From positions 1-35,074 of the forward strand of contig JAJRWS010000118.1 in NCBI GenBank assembly GCA_024276705.1: 35,074 bases of DNA, in the 5' to 3' direction. The translations under genes were made by a program, and so were the position numbers. The notes beneath the pieces are model-generated. The model did not search any database. It was not told where the DNA came from and was given only the letters and a program-made list of their open reading frames with translations. The stretch comes from Planctomycetota bacterium (lineage in GTDB: Bacteria > Planctomycetota > Planctomycetia > Pirellulales > Lacipirellulaceae). Positions 3,430 to 22,390 of the stretch are shown in pieces (position 1 is the stretch's first letter; every line of letters starts with the position of its first letter).

Positions 3430-3523
3430 AGAACCGGCGAAAAAAGGGGACAGAAAAGGAGACGCAGCCAATAGTGTTCGGCACGGTGTGTGCTGCCAGC
3501 AATGAGAAGGCCCACGTGGATCG

Positions 3524-3560
3524 AAAAAGGTGCCAGGAGCCTTAATGGCTGTTTAGGCAA
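3524..3560 (+). repeat. Left REP-like end of the RAYT element
   Basis: AAAAAGGTGCCAGGAGCC continues to TGGCTGTTTAGGCAA. It is the imperfect inverted counterpart of 4313-4349, matching at roughly 30 of 37 positions. Together they bracket the transposase gene. Confidence 0.7.
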
Positions 3561-3651
3561 GATCGAATGGGGTACATATGGACACCATATGATTGGCATG
3601 CTAAGGTGGGATCAGGTTACTTCACTCCCTCCCTCACAAAGGGCTTCGAAA

Positions 3652-4332
3652 ATGCCCAGACCACCACGCGCTGATTTCGCCGGAGATACTTATCACGCAC
3701 TGAACCGAGGGAACTCCCGGCGGGAGATCTTCAACAAAGAGGCTGACTACAGGGCATTTGAACTGGTAGTTGCCGAAGGCTTGGAGAAATTTCCCGTTAG
3801 CCTGTTCTCTTACGAGTGGATGCCAAACCACTGGCACATGGTCCTTTCACCGCGAGAAGACGGCGCAATGTCCCTTCTTCTCTATTGGATAACAATGACC
3901 TACGCACAACGTTATCACGCTCACTACCACACCGTAGGCAATGGCCATCTGTTCCAAGGTAGGTTCAAAAGTTTTCCGATCCAGGACGATGACCATTTTT
4001 TCGTGGTTTGTCGATACGTCGAGCGCAACGCCTTGACTGCTGGACTGGTTGAACAAGCGGAGCGATGGCGTTGGGGCAGTTTGTGGAATTGGTATGGAGA
4101 GCAATCGATAATCCAACTTACCCCCTGGCCAATACCGAGACCATCAGGTTGGATTGAACGAGTCAATCAAGCGATCGGTGATAAGGAAGTAAATAAATTG
4201 CGGCAATGCGTTCGACGCGGCAGTCCCTTCGGAGACGAGCAATGGACTAAAACGACAGCCAAACGGCTGAACCTCGAATCGACTCTACGGCCTCTCGGTC
4301 GCCCTCGCAAGTTTACCCAAACAGCCAAATAG
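3652..4332 (+). CDS. REP-associated tyrosine transposase (RAYT, IS200/IS605 Y1 superfamily)
   Basis: A 226-residue protein from ATG 3652 (MPRPPRADFAGDTYHALNRG). Diagnostic blocks are YHALNRGN near the N-terminus, then YEWMPNHWHMVLSP with the HxH metal-binding pair (HWH), then GHLFQGRFKSFPI, then CRYVERNALTAGLV. The catalytic Tyr of this family usually lies in the CRYVERN region. An upstream in-frame extension to 3490 is rejected because it runs through the left REP-like end. The stop lies inside the right end (4313-4349). Such proteins bind and cut single-stranded REP DNA; they are usually single-copy domesticated relatives of IS200 rather than active insertion sequences. It appears intact. 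Confidence 0.9.
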   Translation: MPRPPRADFAGDTYHALNRGNSRREIFNKEADYRAFELVVAEGLEKFPVSLFSYEWMPNHWHMVLSPREDGAMSLLLYWITMTYAQRYHAHYHTVGNGHLFQGRFKSFPIQDDDHFFVVCRYVERNALTAGLVEQAERWRWGSLWNWYGEQSIIQLTPWPIPRPSGWIERVNQAIGDKEVNKLRQCVRRGSPFGDEQWTKTTAKRLNLESTLRPLGRPRKFTQTAK

Positions 4333-10344: not shown

Positions 10345-10468
10345 GGGAGAAGTGGGCAGGGGCAGGGCATGGTTCAGTGATAGCTTCCTCCGGCAGAGCA
10401 GGAGGTTTCTCGGGAAAGTCACGTACCACCCGCAGCGGATGGCGAGGAAAGTCTCTAATTCGACACAA

Positions 10469-10597
10469 TTCGACACCGCCACTTTTCCTAATACAAGGTT
10501 CGACGCGTAAGCGAGTGAACACGTTACGGCAATTTCACTCGCTAGCGCTTCGCACCTCGTATTTCGTATACTTTTACGTGAAAGTGACGCAGCCCAA
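10469..10597 (-). mobile_element. Palindromic MITE-like element, copy 1 (degenerate)
   Basis: A 129-bp element with imperfect terminal inverted repeats, TTCGACACCGCCACTTTT at the left and GAAAGTGACGCAGCCCAA at the right. The inner stem pairs AAGCGAGTGAA with TTCACTCGCT around a loop containing GTTACGGCAAT. It is homologous in inverse orientation to 19293-19422, where the ends are much better preserved. No coding capacity. A transposase supplying mobility in trans is not in the window. Confidence 0.7.
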
Positions 10598-10616
10598 CTA
10601 AAAGGGGCTGGAAAAA

Positions 10617-10797
10617 ATATCGTACTCGTACTCAGCCCAGCGGTACTCGTACTCGAATCCAAGCCCAAGGCAAGGTCGGTCATCATCAACATCCATGGCC
10701 TCCTGTTTCGTTTGCATCCAATGGTTCTATTCGAGTACGAGTACGTCAGAACGGCAGAGCCTGATGGGTACTCATCAGCGGAGTTGGTAGTTTACGG
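10617..10797 (+). repeat. Dispersed 180-bp repeat, copy 1
   Basis: It begins ATATCGTACTCGTACTCAGC and ends TTGGTAGTTTACGG, and matches 19101-19282 along its whole length with scattered substitutions and small indels. Shared blocks include AGCGGTACTCGTACTCGAA, GTCATCATCAA and GAGCCTGATGGGTACTC. GTACTCGTACTCG near the start and CGAGTACGAGTAC near 10732-10745 are inverted repeats. There is no conserved open frame, so it is probably a non-coding mobile or structural RNA-like repeat. Confidence 0.75.
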
Positions 10798-10831
10798 AAA
10801 ATTATTCGAATCGAGGTTTGGCCCTGATTTG

Positions 10832-10869
10832 GAGTAAGATTAAGAGTAAGATTAAGAGTAAGAGTAAGA
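10832..10869 (+). repeat. GAGTAAGATTAA microsatellite
   Basis: GAGTAAGATTAA occurs twice in tandem and is followed by GAGTAAGAGTAAGAA, giving hexamer-based tandem units of GAGTAA and GATTAA. It lies 45 bp upstream of the ftr start, after the dispersed repeat. It is on the leader side of ftr and could vary in length between strains. Confidence 0.7.
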
Positions 10870-10912
10870 ACACCAAGGCCCACTCCCTTTTCCATGCATC
10901 CAGGCCTTTCCC

Positions 10913-11971: not shown

Positions 11972-13990
11972 ATGACCGCCGAACAAAACCCATCAGACCC
12001 TGTCCCAACCGAACCCAGCCAGGAGCATTCTTCCGGAATTACTTCTCCTGGGGTTACTGAGTCGCACGCGTCGCCAGCCGAGGTGACTCGGCCCGATACG
12101 CCCAACGACAACATGGTGGGGCAAGACCCGGCCCAATCTCCTGCAATGGAAAGGGCTCCTGCAATGGAAGGGGCTCCTGCAATGGAAGGGGCTCCTGCAA
12201 TGGAAGGGGCTCCTGCAATGGAAGGGGCTCCTGCAATGGAAGGGGCTCCTACAATGGAAACGGCTCCTGGCACCTCTAACAGTAGTGGGTCCAACGACAC
12301 CGGATCCAACGACACGGACCCCTCCAAGGATAAAGGTTACGAGGCGGCGGAACCCAACGGAACGCTTCCGAAGGAACCCGAGCGAAAGGGTACGGAGGGG
12401 AACGGTGTGGCAGTGGCCACCCCCGAACCGACCCACTGTGAGCCGGTTCAAAGTGAGTCGGCGCAATGTGTACCCGCACAAAGCAAACCGACGGGACAGC
12501 CCACCCCCACAGCGGAATCCAGCCTGGTGGAATCCTCCAACACTGAAACTACTGCCGCGGAAAATTCGCCCGAGGCAACTCCCGCACAGCCGCCCAACGC
12601 GCCGCCACCGAGCCAGCGTTTGCAAATCGGCACACAGCGCACCGGCGATGAACAGGAAGTTGCCAAGCCGCAACCGACAACGCCGGTCAGCCAGAATATT
12701 GCCGCTCCGGAAGCCGATCGCAAACATTACCCGCCGCCCAATACGCGCACCCAGCTTTCTCCCGAACTGCAGCAGGAACTGGAAGCCGCCCTGGGAGATG
12801 AATCGCTCGATTCGCTGATCGACAGCGCGGCGTCGAGCGAAAGTGCCACCGTGGAACTGGCCCCCGAGTCGAGAGTCACCGGCCGGGTGGTGAGTGTTCA
12901 TCGAGAGGATGTGTTTGTCGACCTGGGCAGCCGCACCCAGGGCATCCTGCCGGTCAAGCAATTTCCCGAGGGAGCGCCCGAAATGGGTGCCGAGCTGGAA
13001 CTGATGGTCGTCCGCTTCAACGCCGATCAAGGCCTGTACGAAGTCTCGCTCCCAACCGCGGCCGTGTCGGTCGGCAACTGGGACGAAGTCGAGGAAGGGC
13101 AAATCATCGAAGTCACCATCAGCGGCTCCAACAAGGGCGGTCTGGAATGCCAGATTGCCGGCATCAAGGGATTTATCCCGATGGGGCAAATCTCGATCTA
13201 CCGTGTCGAGAATGTCGAGGAGCTGGTGGGGCAACGGATGACCTGCGTGATCATGGAGGCGAATCGGGACCGCCGCAACCTGGTACTCAGCCATCGCGGC
13301 GTGATGGAACGGGAACGCCGGGAACAACGCGAAAAGCTTCTGGCTGAGTTGGAGCCGGGGCAAATCCGCGACGGCACCGTTCGCAGCCTGCAAGATTTTG
13401 GCGCATTTGTCGACCTGGGCGGCATCGATGGTTTGATCCACATCAGCCAGCTCAGTTGGGACCGCATTGGCCACCCGCGCGAAGTGCTCGAGGTGGGCCA
13501 GGCAATCCAGGTTCGGGTGGCCAAGGTCAACCGGGAGACGGGCAAGATCGGCCTGGCTTACCGCGATCTGGGCGAAAACCCATGGACCGACGCCGCCACA
13601 AAATACCCGGTAGGCGCGCGGGTGAAGGGCAACGTCACCAAGCTCATGCAGTTTGGCGCGTTCGTCAAACTCGAGCCGGGAGTCGAGGGCCTGATCCACA
13701 TTTCCGAGCTGGGCCACGGCCGGGTCCACCGCACGGCTGACGTGGTCAGCGAGAATCAAGAGGTGGAAGTGAAAGTACTGTCGGTCGACACCGACGCCCA
13801 ACGTATCGGCCTGTCGCTCAAAGCGTTGCTGGCTGCCCCCGAGAAACCGGCCCGCGAGAAACCGGCCGACCCTCCTCCCGAGACCGAAGCCGACAAGCAG
13901 GCCAGAGAACGCCGGAAGGAGCAGGAGAAAAACCTCAAGGGCGGCATCGGCGGCCCCAGTGGGGGCGAAAAATTTGGTTTGAAGTGGTAA
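11972..13990 (+). CDS. S1-domain RNA-binding protein (ribosomal protein S1-like) with low-complexity N-terminal region
   Basis: A 672-residue protein. Residues about 1-290 are Pro/Glu/Ser/Thr-rich and disordered, with seven 6-residue units of PAMEGA type at residues 57-98. Four S1 OB-fold domains follow, starting near 303 (GRVVSVHREDVFVDLGSR), 376 (GQIIEVTISGSNKGGLEC), 463 (DGTVRSLQDFGAFVDLGG) and 548 (KGNVTKLMQFGAFVKLEP). Repeats 3 and 4 carry the canonical GLIHISQLSW and GLIHISELGHG strands. The C-terminus is charged and ends GEKFGLKW. Bacterial S1 has four to six S1 domains and brings mRNA to the 30S subunit; this protein could be S1 itself or a Tex/RNase-E-like accessory. The long disordered N-terminus is unusual. 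It is monocistronic, with a 170-bp leader after ftr. Confidence 0.85.
   Translation: MTAEQNPSDPVPTEPSQEHSSGITSPGVTESHASPAEVTRPDTPNDNMVGQDPAQSPAMERAPAMEGAPAMEGAPAMEGAPAMEGAPAMEGAPTMETAPGTSNSSGSNDTGSNDTDPSKDKGYEAAEPNGTLPKEPERKGTEGNGVAVATPEPTHCEPVQSESAQCVPAQSKPTGQPTPTAESSLVESSNTETTAAENSPEATPAQPPNAPPPSQRLQIGTQRTGDEQEVAKPQPTTPVSQNIAAPEADRKHYPPPNTRTQLSPELQQELEAALGDESLDSLIDSAASSESATVELAPESRVTGRVVSVHREDVFVDLGSRTQGILPVKQFPEGAPEMGAELELMVVRFNADQGLYEVSLPTAAVSVGNWDEVEEGQIIEVTISGSNKGGLECQIAGIKGFIPMGQISIYRVENVEELVGQRMTCVIMEANRDRRNLVLSHRGVMERERREQREKLLAELEPGQIRDGTVRSLQDFGAFVDLGGIDGLIHISQLSWDRIGHPREVLEVGQAIQVRVAKVNRETGKIGLAYRDLGENPWTDAATKYPVGARVKGNVTKLMQFGAFVKLEPGVEGLIHISELGHGRVHRTADVVSENQEVEVKVLSVDTDAQRIGLSLKALLAAPEKPAREKPADPPPETEADKQARERRKEQEKNLKGGIGGPSGGEKFGLKW
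12140..12265 (+). repeat. 18-bp in-frame tandem repeat coding PAMEGA
   Basis: Seven 18-bp units lie within the S1-like gene and code PAMERA, PAMEGA five times, then PTMETA. The central units are identical at the DNA level (CCTGCAATGGAAGGGGCT). DNA identity beyond what the protein requires indicates recent expansion by slippage or unequal exchange. Unit number would change protein length without shifting the frame. Confidence 0.95.
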
Positions 13991-19031: not shown

Positions 19032-19100
19032 ACCATTAGTCAGCGACCACCGACAGAGCCGCTAGCTTGAGGAAGGCTCCTCAAAGGAGCCGGGGAGAGA

Positions 19101-19282
19101 ATATCGTGCTCGTACTCAGCAAAGCGGTACTCGTACTCGAACCCAACTTGGCGGCAAGGTCAGTCATCATCAATATCCATGGGCTCTTGTTTCTGTTGCA
19201 TGCAATGGTTCCAGTCGAGTACGAGCACGACGGAACGGCGGAGCCTGATGGGTACTCTCCAGCAGAGCTGGTGGTTTACGGA
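19101..19282 (+). repeat. Dispersed 180-bp repeat, copy 2
   Basis: The same-strand homologue of 10617-10797, starting ATATCGTGCTCGTACTCAGC and ending GTGGTTTACGGA. Differences between copies are spread evenly and include indels that would break any reading frame, so the repeat is unlikely to be protein-coding. It lies immediately before MITE copy 2; in copy 1 the MITE comes first. Confidence 0.75.
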
Positions 19283-19292
19283 CGGGAATTAA

Positions 19293-19422
19293 TTGGACAG
19301 CGCCACTTTTACGCGGAAGCATAGGAAATACAAGCCCGAAGCGCCAGCGAGTGAAATTGCCGTAACATGTTCACTCGCTTGCGCTTCGCACTTTGTACTG
19401 CGGGAAAAGTGGCGCTGTCCAA
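19293..19422 (+). mobile_element. Palindromic MITE-like element, copy 2 (well preserved)
   Basis: A 130-bp element with 18-bp perfect terminal inverted repeats: TTGGACAGCGCCACTTTT at 19293-19310 and its exact complement at 19405-19422. Inside, CGAAGCGCCAGCGAGTGAA pairs with TTCACTCGCTTGCGCTTCG (one mismatch) around a 14-nt loop. Nearly the whole element can fold as one long hairpin. Target-site duplication is unclear (AA or TTAA-like bases on the left, CTAA on the right). It lies 85 bp upstream of the HzsA-like gene and could affect its transcription. Confidence 0.85.
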
Positions 19423-19507
19423 CTAAGGGGAAGATATTGGTGTATAACAAGAGAAGCTCCTGCTCACGACGAACCGCTCGGTCACCCGAACCCCGTTTCA
19501 CATCATC

Positions 19508-22390
19508 ATGCTATCCATTCTTTCCTTGCTCTCCATTCTGATTGTCAGCGCGAGTGCCGACCAAGATCCTGTTCCACCTCAGTTTGGGCCGGCGGTGGTC
19601 ACCTTCGGCGAAACGGCCGCGGCGCCGGCCAGTCGGCCCTCTTGCGGTTTTTCGCTGATCTCCGCCAGGGAGGATGGACCGCAAGTGGTAATCACGGCAA
19701 AACCAGTAACGATGCTGGCGGTCGTTCGTCCGAATGAAGTGGCGCAAGTTGAGATTACGATCCGCCAAATCACCGGACCGTTTGAGATTTCCGCCGACGT
19801 GCAACCGACCGCCGGCGACCAGGCCGAAGTCTGCCTGGCGCTGGGACCCGATTGGAAGGAGCATGTCGTTTCGGTTCAAGGCGGGACAACCTTGCGACTG
19901 GCCGGCCAGGCCGGTCCGCAAGGCGCGACCCTCCGACTGTCAACCCGCACCGGCAACGCGGAAGGTGCGGTCCGCTGGTCGGCCATTCGGCTGACGAGTG
20001 GTGGGCACTCGTTCGATGTACCGCTCGCTCTGCCGGTCCGCGAACTGGGTCTGGACCCACCGCCCATCTTGCCGCCGATGCGGCCGGCGGTCGAACGAGC
20101 GCTGATCGAATGGGACTGGCGCATGCAGGATGGAATCGAAACCGAGCGCGAGCCACGAACCTATGCCGCGGCCATCAAGCAAACCCTCGAACGGGGCACG
20201 AAACTGATCGAACGACTCCAGTCCCTGGAGGTGGCGATGGGAGACTGGCCCGATCGCTGGCTCCGCCTGCGGCAGCGCTGGCACGACCTTTCGGCAGACG
20301 CTGCAACGGACGCCGCGACCTGGGAGTCGCTATGGCGCGAAGTCCATCGAGCGCGGCGAGCCATCGCCCTGGCCAACCCGGCAGTCGGTGCCAACCCACT
20401 GGCTTTCATCAAGCGCGTCCCCAGCGCCTTCAGCCATCAGTTGACGCAATACTATGGCTCCGACGCCAGGCCGGGTGGCGGCCTTTTCGTGCTCGAGTCT
20501 CCGGGCGTGTCGATGCAATGCCGACAACTTACCACCGGCAAGCTGCCGCTGGGCAGTTATCAGCATCCGGAAGTCTCCTTCGACGGCCGCCACCTTCTGT
20601 TTGCGTTCTGCCCGGTTGAGAAAGCGCCGACCGACCGCGAGATGCACGGCCAGCTCCATTACCACCTGTACCAGGTGGCGGCCGATGGCACGGAATTAAA
20701 ACAACTGACCAGCGGTCCGTACGACGATTTCGCGCCCCGCTATCTGCCCTCGGGCAAGATCTTGTTCCTGTCGACCCGACGGCGTGGTTTCCACCGCTGC
20801 GGCCGCGGCCCGTGCCCGGTTTACACACTGACCGTCGCCAATGCCGATGGCTCCGATCCGCACACCATCTCCTATCACGAAACGCACGAATGGGATCCCG
20901 CCATCATGCACGATGGCCGCGTGATCTATACGCGGTGGGACTACGTCGACCGTCATGCGGTCCATTACCAGCAGTTGTGGTCGACCCGGCCTGATGGAAC
21001 CGATGTGCGCATCTTCTACGGCAACAACACCTTGAACCCAATCGGTGTCTGGGAGGCGCGACCCGTGCCCAATTCCCACCAGGTCATGGCCACGGCGGCG
21101 GCCCACCATGCGATGACGGCCGGGTCGATCATTTTAATCGACACAACCCGGGGCCTGGATGGATTGGCCCCCATCACTCGCCTCACTCCCGACGCACTCT
21201 TCCCGGAGAGCGAAGCTCCAGTCCGGCGCAAACCGGAAGGCTACTGGCACAACCCGGTCGGCGTACACGGCACACCCGACCTGCCGCCAGCAGCAGCCCG
21301 CTGGCCCGGCCATTGCTACCGCTCGCCTTATCCGCTGGCGGAGGATTTCTTTCTGGCAGCCTACAGCTTCGACCCGCTGATTGGTGAACCGACGTCCAAT
21401 GTGCCCAATATGTTCGGCATCTACCTGGTCGACCGGTTCGGCAACAAGGAGCTGCTCTATCGGGACTTGAACATCGGCAGCTTATGGCCGGTACCACTGG
21501 CTCCGCGGCCGGTGCCAATGAACATACCCTCAATTCAGGCGAAGGCGCCACAACCGGAAGGGACTTTTTTCCTGCAGAATGTCCACGCAAGCTGGCCGGC
21601 ACTGCCCGACGAACCGATCACGCACCTCCGCATTGTTCAGATCCTGCCCAAATCGACGCCCCACTACAACAATCCACCGATCGGTCTTGCGCCCGCATCG
21701 CCCGGCCGGCAAGTCCTGGGGACCGTCCCGGTGGCAGCGGACGGCTCGGCCTATTTTCGGGCTCCGGCGGGGATTCCCCTTTCGTTCCAGGCGCTCGACC
21801 GCCAAGGCCGCGCAGTCCAGACGATGCGCAGCCTCACCTACCTGCAACCGGGTGAGACCGCTTCGTGCATTGGCTGTCACGAGCCGAGGACCTCGGCCCC
21901 TCGGCAGCACGGCAGCGCAGCATCCCTGCAGCACCCACCTTCCGTCATCGAACCGGGCCCGGAAGGTTCGAAACCATTCAGCTACCCGCGGCTGGTGCAA
22001 CCGGTCCTCGACACGCATTGTGTTCGGTGCCATAACGACCAGCGTCACGACGGCGACATCGTGCTGACCGGCGAACCGCAAGGGCATTTCAGCCGATCTT
22101 ACAACGCCCTGGCGCCGTGGGTACCCTACTCAGCCTGGCCGCGCAGCGATGGTGATTTCCGCATCGTCAACAGCGAACCGTTGACACATCCCGACACGTT
22201 CGGCGCCCGTGCCAGTCGTCTCATGGAGCTGCTACTGCAAGGTCACCAGGAGGTCCGCCTCTCAGCGGCCGACCTGGAGCGACTCATCACCTGGATGGAC
22301 ACCAACGCACTGTTCTACGGCACGTTCGACCCCAAGGATCAGGCCCGGCAACAGCAGGGCAGCCTGATTGCAGGGCCAAAAATCGAATAG
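19508..22390 (+). CDS. HzsA-related diheme c-type propeller protein
   Basis: A 960-residue exported protein with an N-terminal Sec signal (MLSILSLLSILIVSASA). After a helical region, a TolB-like propeller runs from about 320 (HPEVSFDGRHLLFAF, LKQLTSGPYDDFAPRYLPSG) with the family signature GFHRCGRGPCPVYTL and HETHEWDPAIMHDGRVIYTR. The C-terminal part has two heme c sites, CIGCH at 787-791 and CVRCH at 838-842. The architecture matches proteins named for similarity to the hydrazine synthase alpha subunit, but such homologues are widespread in non-anammox planctomycetes and no HzsB/C is present, so hydrazine synthesis is not implied. Function is unknown, probably periplasmic electron transfer or oxidation. 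The sulfatase gene follows by 22 bp. A truncated relative lies upstream at 18391. Confidence 0.88.
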   Translation: MLSILSLLSILIVSASADQDPVPPQFGPAVVTFGETAAAPASRPSCGFSLISAREDGPQVVITAKPVTMLAVVRPNEVAQVEITIRQITGPFEISADVQPTAGDQAEVCLALGPDWKEHVVSVQGGTTLRLAGQAGPQGATLRLSTRTGNAEGAVRWSAIRLTSGGHSFDVPLALPVRELGLDPPPILPPMRPAVERALIEWDWRMQDGIETEREPRTYAAAIKQTLERGTKLIERLQSLEVAMGDWPDRWLRLRQRWHDLSADAATDAATWESLWREVHRARRAIALANPAVGANPLAFIKRVPSAFSHQLTQYYGSDARPGGGLFVLESPGVSMQCRQLTTGKLPLGSYQHPEVSFDGRHLLFAFCPVEKAPTDREMHGQLHYHLYQVAADGTELKQLTSGPYDDFAPRYLPSGKILFLSTRRRGFHRCGRGPCPVYTLTVANADGSDPHTISYHETHEWDPAIMHDGRVIYTRWDYVDRHAVHYQQLWSTRPDGTDVRIFYGNNTLNPIGVWEARPVPNSHQVMATAAAHHAMTAGSIILIDTTRGLDGLAPITRLTPDALFPESEAPVRRKPEGYWHNPVGVHGTPDLPPAAARWPGHCYRSPYPLAEDFFLAAYSFDPLIGEPTSNVPNMFGIYLVDRFGNKELLYRDLNIGSLWPVPLAPRPVPMNIPSIQAKAPQPEGTFFLQNVHASWPALPDEPITHLRIVQILPKSTPHYNNPPIGLAPASPGRQVLGTVPVAADGSAYFRAPAGIPLSFQALDRQGRAVQTMRSLTYLQPGETASCIGCHEPRTSAPRQHGSAASLQHPPSVIEPGPEGSKPFSYPRLVQPVLDTHCVRCHNDQRHDGDIVLTGEPQGHFSRSYNALAPWVPYSAWPRSDGDFRIVNSEPLTHPDTFGARASRLMELLLQGHQEVRLSAADLERLITWMDTNALFYGTFDPKDQARQQQGSLIAGPKIE

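Follow-up and report, generated by a model that had tools for sequence, protein, structure and literature searches.

A Non-Autonomous IS200/IS605-Type Element and a Palindromic, Probably IS701-Type MITE, Apparently Joined by Independent Insertions in a Pirellulales Relative

Two repeat families lie next to each other at two places in the window (the whole 35,074-nucleotide stretch of DNA analyzed here), and they are best explained as two separate mobile miniatures. One of them, R, appears to be a non-autonomous element of IS200/IS605 type (a PATE), and the other is a palindromic MITE, probably of IS701 type. The two would have been joined by independent insertions, probably via matching targets. 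We give this reading a probability of roughly 0.85.

In the proposed mechanism, a Y1 TnpA acting in trans, which we infer to be the enzyme that moves R in this genome, would recognize the subterminal hairpins of R. R would transpose in single-stranded form, its movement being tied to the template of the lagging strand, and would insert without duplication beside a one-sided target, which is AAT(T/A)A after R or, in the tnpA sense, YTWATT before LE. The MITE would insert via a DDE transposase and leave a 4-bp YTAR duplication. Each element would thereby meet sites of the other: the R loop CCCCTAAAAGGGG, the adjacent CTAG of some copies and the R target AATTAR all contain YTAR and may serve the MITE, while the CTAA duplication of the MITE together with its terminal TT would give CTAATT, the target of R.

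Layout of the Two Pairs in the Window

The window is contig C27 of a 698-contig, 6.36-Mb genome with a completeness of 85%. A sequence-only reading of it had described a MITE and a 180-bp repeat as adjacent at two sites, with the 180-bp repeat on the same strand at both. Both pairs are present, and the repeat pair (10610-10798 and 19094-19282, 8484 bp start to start) is 84% identical with the strand kept. The MITE pair shows 61-nt inverted arms of 90%. The 180-bp repeat proved to be the middle of R, an element of about 250 bp, and the R copies are longer than first seen, with left ends starting at 10417 and 19038 (Table 1). The MITE had also been called inverted and the order swapped. The arms are indeed inverted, but for a palindrome such as the MITE, which matches itself on the opposite strand, orientation carries little information, and the order seemed swapped because the left end of R lies upstream, which places the first MITE inside R.

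At copy 1, GTCTCTAA, the MITE and CTAAAAGGGG follow each other where uninterrupted R copies have CCCCTAAAAGGGG, so the MITE sits inside the hairpin loop of R. CTAA stands on both sides of this MITE once the 10-bp duplication at its end is allowed for; the flank-pairing script had missed the pair owing to that duplication. At copy 2, the last four bases (TTAA) of the R target double as the flank to the left of the MITE. Since AATTAA overlaps this flank, the order of events there could be either way. A short tandem array of GATTAAGA/GAGTAAGA follows directly after R copy 1 (10832-10870), and a similar array follows at least one other R copy.

Table 1. Positions in the window of the parts of the two R/MITE pairs.
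Feature	Position	Strand	Basis
Stretch directly before R copy 1 that looks like a type B (alternative) LE end belonging to another R copy	10373..10416	+	by eye
R copy 1, left part (= RE of the IS200-type element): AGTCACGTACCACC and decayed hairpin, through the first CTAA	10417..10458	+	sequence, end-model match
CTAA, first copy of the 4-bp MITE duplication	10455..10458	.	read from sequence
Palindromic MITE copy 1, in the hairpin loop of R; left end with 10-bp tandem duplication TTCGACACAA	10459..10597	-	
CTAA, second copy of the MITE duplication	10598..10601	.	
R copy 1, remainder, with GTACTC inverted-repeat core and LE hairpin	10602..10802	+	
R copy 2, putative complete non-autonomous IS200/IS605-type element (PATE)	19038..19286	+ (tnpA sense would be minus)	
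One-sided R target AATTAA (reverse complement TTAATT, then LE)	19287..19292	+	
Palindromic MITE copy 2, inverted ends TTGGACAGCGCCACTTTT	19293..19422	+	
CTAA following MITE copy 2; one mismatch to the TTAA that precedes it	19423..19426	.	

Pairing of R and the MITE Against the Intergenic Background

R was counted by patterns of its ends because just 40 of 342 first-look candidates had been scored. The left-end pattern had 139 matches in the genome (the places of 100 of them were listed), the alternative right-end patterns had 65 and 63, and the reversed-pattern controls gave 0 throughout; R copies split by contig ends were possibly counted through one end only. For the MITE, 40 of 46 first-look candidates had been scored, and a rescan of 41 stretches (761 kb) yielded no further copies.

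The double adjacency had been taken as unlikely by chance. Six of the 36 MITE loci touch R, one of them as a 36-bp fragment, whereas a uniform background would give about 0.3 MITE-R pairs. The adjacency is above expectation, but the excess is weak once both elements are confined to intergenic DNA, which makes up 14.2% of the genome (a rough ORF caller put the coding fraction at 0.858). On this background 6 MITEs lie within 50 bp of R against an expectation of 1.97 (n = 36, P = 0.015, about threefold); without the 36-bp fragment at C245, 1.91 were expected and 5 seen (n = 35, P = 0.045). An excess of this modest size is compatible with the view that there is no targeting and that the co-location reflects the crowding of both elements into the intergenic 14% of the genome, a serious but doubtful alternative. 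Against it, four MITEs lie at YTAR sites of R or of its junction where 1.05 were expected (P = 0.022), a count that falls to three (P = 0.09) when C542, which has no recognizable left R end, is dropped. Moreover, in 5 of 36 rows the two flanks of R are inverted relative to each other beyond the 99% level of mismatched flanks (0.36 expected), and lowering the threshold to 95% gives the same five rows (1.8 expected). These 36 R rows have both ends and flanks; two of them have a common right end, and one includes an inserted MITE.

We infer that target matching, rather than the common intergenic habitat, causes the pairing excess. The earlier suggestion that one element targets the other holds for insertions in both directions as events, while an active preference of one element for the other is weakly supported.

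R as a Candidate Member of the IS200/IS605 Group

The R copies, displayed with their flanks, start with AGTCA(C/T)GTACCACC and end after GTTTACGGACGGG. Hairpins recur in the listed copies, CCACC(C/G)GC..GC(C/G)GGTGG and CACCAGC..GCTGGTG, one at each end; in the window copies they are imperfect. R has no terminal inverted repeats. The single-strand fold of R copy 2 had a z of -1.95, with 7 of 200 shuffles equally good. Empty and filled pairs, one of them a base off exact, showed insertion of R without target duplication. The sequence to the right of R is AAT(T/A)A, with A in 31, A in 36, T in 28, T/A in 31 and A in 28 of the 36 rows at positions 1 to 5, and on the left side A is just mildly favored, with 17 of 36 rows at each of the final two positions.

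R ends were present in 6 of 58 relatives. IS200-type TnpA frames adjoin R ends in four fetched loci from three of the genomes (G017, G023, and G056), and the TnpA of G023 matched Pfam Y1_Tnp (1.3e-35) and scored 133 bits with the NCBIfam IS200/IS605 model (cut-off 55). In addition, 77 tnpA loci were fetched from named collections and 19 of them were examined. Both R ends flank tnpA in 8 of the 19, including Bythopirellula polymerisocia and Adhaeretor mobilis; among these eight, one locus has its far end 1.1 kb away and another has a partial end. The LE junction bears TAATTC in 7 of the examined loci. The closest tnpA genes, again among loci from the named collections, are in Pirellulales such as Bythopirellula and Adhaeretor, which places the host among the planctomycetes near these genera. 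Because its ends flank IS200-type tnpA in relatives, R is read as a member of the IS200/IS605 group that has no tnpA. In its own genome, a protein search with the TnpA of a relative found no IS200-type tnpA (no positive control was included, and the bin is 85% complete).

A second candidate for the mover is a RAYT, with R as a REP-type repeat. The hairpins of R resemble REPs, and the own genome has five Y1 genes whose best match is the REP-associated model (29.9-68.7 bits, all below the cut-off of 80). One of them, at window 3490-4332, resembles a REP-associated tyrosine transposase with 44.7 of 80 bits and has no R ends adjoining. We consider this origin improbable, as in the fetched loci none of the five Y1 genes has R ends next to it (the best match, at E = 0.03, is at chance level), yet R ends flank IS200-type tnpA in relatives.

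Strand Bias of R

The strand of R was compared with GC skew in 40 stretches and the window (761 kb), using R pieces of at least 45 bases, with R masked for the skew. The direction was opposite to the sign of the skew in 56 of 62 pieces (P = 3e-11) and ran counter to this rule in 6. By stretch, 36 of the 41 wholly agreed, 5 agreed partly and none was wholly against. Compared with the majority gene strand, the pieces divided 35 to 27.

In relatives, tnpA reads opposite to the direction of R used here, so the tnpA-sense strand is the G-rich strand. The lagging-strand template corresponds in sequence to the G-rich strand. The orientation of R would thus be the one that lagging-strand-template transposition predicts, with the direction of replication taken from GC skew and not from a mapped origin. 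The same bias would place both window copies of R on one strand. IS608 and ISDra2 use the lagging-strand template, according to excerpts of PMC6006769. The available part of PMC7290912 describes a lagging-strand bias, with IS605 in its own genome showing none (10/22).

The Core of R and the IVP Cassettes

Between its ends R has the core TCGTACTCGTACTC-N10-GGTACTCGTACTCG, a GTACTC inverted repeat that matches repeats found next to IVP genes at 79-92% over 36-43 bases. R could on this ground be a deleted four-helix-bundle (23S rRNA IVP) cassette moved by the mover of that cassette. This is very improbable: a complete set of R ends around IVP genes was not seen in the loci scanned, and R ends also carry other cores, at C175 and in the relative G045. 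The core of R looks like cargo, since the same ends carry these other cores, and cores may be exchanged between end types.

In G045, four loci (L247, L254, L258, and L266) have the same IS200-type ends as R with a REPIN-like palindrome core (CAAGCCCGACGCGCAAGCGAGGG..), which is akin to the MITE center. The IVP genes of the own genome (PF05635, L060-L079) are flanked by inverted repeats, often short tandem units that differ per gene (GTACTC, GTTCAG, GATCGG, ATTCGG, and others). Of the 20 genes, 14 had enough flank, and in 12 of these the inverted flanks beat the 99% shuffled score. From their sequence, IVP genes and their repeats look like a mobile cassette family of their own. A literature search for IVP genes with repeats in Planctomycetes found no on-point report.

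The Palindromic MITE

The MITE is about 130 bp long, with inverted ends TTGGACAGCGCCACTTTT and a palindromic center. Identical 4-bp flanks were found in 11 of 21 rows, nine of which are YTAR (CTAA, CTAG, and TTAG), and the other 10 rows have no perfect duplication. An IS630-like TA duplication was considered and dropped once the 4-bp YTAR flanks appeared. In other genomes, many related MITE ends abut CTAG, CTAA, or TTAG, and other MITE-like ends with two mismatches are not at such sites and are perhaps due to chance.

In the relative G031, a lone MITE-like end (16/18 identical) lies beside a broken IS701-type gene at L431; its far end was not seen. The gene matched the IS701 transposase model with 158.6 bits (cut-off 150), and an overlapping frame reached 104.2. 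The MITE is tentatively assigned to the IS701 type and is probably moved by a DDE transposase. The assignment depends on this one broken gene and one end, because IS5 also makes YTAR duplications, as stated in excerpts of PMC10359306. The end pattern was searched in 59 genomes (own included), with 28 fetched loci inspected together with 10 lone ends of the own genome. It gave short pairs and lone ends and no full-length autonomous partner. Frames at another locus (L438) had no match.

The contig ends C140:161 and C451:4700 have MITE-type ends with overlapping inner parts, and they may represent a further miniature in which these ends enclose a different center.

Nested Insertions and Empty Sites

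Besides copy 1 of the window, a MITE lies inside R at CTAG in C507, with R on both sides. In C542 the MITE abuts R at R position 45, and the left part of R is unrecognizable, so this is only a possible insertion of the MITE into R. C245 has a 36-bp MITE-like piece at R.

The reverse nesting was found in a pair of contigs. C201 is a MITE with GAGTGAATTAGTC in its loop (the empty site), and C175 is the same MITE holding an R-type element there, with flanks of 125 and 104 bp that are 100% identical. The core of the insert differs from that of the window R, and the junction is one base off exact insertion. From this comparison, the sampled population likely contains one locus in two forms, C201 and C175. 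Two paralogous loci are a possible reading as well, since the contigs overlap in that stretch only, the junction is inexact and the core is different. Furthermore, C237 (empty) and C547, where a decayed IVP cassette holds an R-type element, form a paralogous pair with flanks of 93% over 54 and 56 bases.

The sequence-only reading had raised the possibility, from the two adjacent pairs in one window (more are at C507, C542, and C175, with a fragment at C245), that a composite element moves as a unit, with the MITE and R as its modules. This is hardly credible: the genome search that it had suggested, within 50 bp, finds mostly single copies (30 of 36 MITE loci are without R), at most 6 of the 139 R left-end matches belong to MITE pairs, the junction differs from place to place, and at copy 1, C507, and C542 MITE duplications separate the MITE from R.

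Relation to Known Systems

With R read as an IS200/IS605-type element and the MITE as probably of IS701 type, two transposition mechanisms are legible from the sequence. Single-strand transposition would be marked by strand bias, a one-sided target and an empty site, and DDE transposition by the duplication; each element is found inside the other. Like R, the IS200 subgroup has subterminal hairpins and inserts 3' to a short sequence without inverted repeats or duplication (as described in excerpts of PMC6006769 and PMC7290912). It differs in having a Y1 TnpA, whereas R has no tnpA and has the GTACTC inverted-repeat core. The MITE shares inverted ends and a 4-bp YTAR duplication with IS701-type MITEs, but its center is a REPIN-like palindrome and a complete autonomous partner was not seen.

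The PATEs of Haloquadratum walsbyi, as the available sections of PMC3119063 describe them, are transposase-free and IS605-related, with near-terminal palindromes and no target duplication. Its Table 5 gives 79 SMR-A and 13 MITE insertions into PATEs, in the near-terminal palindromes, and shows none of PATEs into MITEs. The present system differs in that the miniature makes YTAR duplications and probably carries ends of IS701 type, in that it is hosted by a Pirellulales relative, and in that nesting was also seen the other way round, with a PATE in the loop of a MITE. MITEs inside PATE palindromes are already known from Haloquadratum, and the two-way nesting is the interesting part; a literature search, which was not exhaustive, found no earlier report of it. 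REP extragenic palindromes are hot spots for insertion sequences, according to excerpts of PMC1525189. Here, in contrast, the palindromes are themselves mobile miniatures, hosting both ways.

The two elements might go further and form a mutually hosting network of PATEs, MITEs, and IVP cassettes, in which the single-strand element would prefer the loops of extruded palindromes and the DDE miniature would prefer the hairpins and junctions of the former. The inverted flanks in 5 of 36 rows, the R-type elements in the MITE loop and in one IVP cassette, the MITEs in R, and the G045 core suggest this reading, which we regard as rather unlikely. If it is true, each insertion would create the target of the next element.

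The Block Between the Pairs

The two pairs had been proposed to recombine across the 10.8-19.1 kb block. At 84% (R) and about 81% (MITE) identity, the window copies are predicted to be poor substrates for recombination. The block consists of ordinary genes, for a formylmethanofuran-tetrahydromethanopterin formyltransferase, an S1-domain protein, a DUF7133/HEAT/cytochrome c protein, and an aldo/keto reductase, and no signs of mobility were seen among these genes of the window. An Rfam scan of the window gave no match at gathering score, and a scan of 12 loci gave a single match, to a microRNA family, far under its gathering score.

Within the S1-domain gene (11972-13990) there is an 18-bp tandem repeat in 7 registers (12120-12287). 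Directly after the second pair, window 19508-22390 encodes a protein of 960 residues with a match to the middle domain of hydrazine synthase alpha (5.8e-22).
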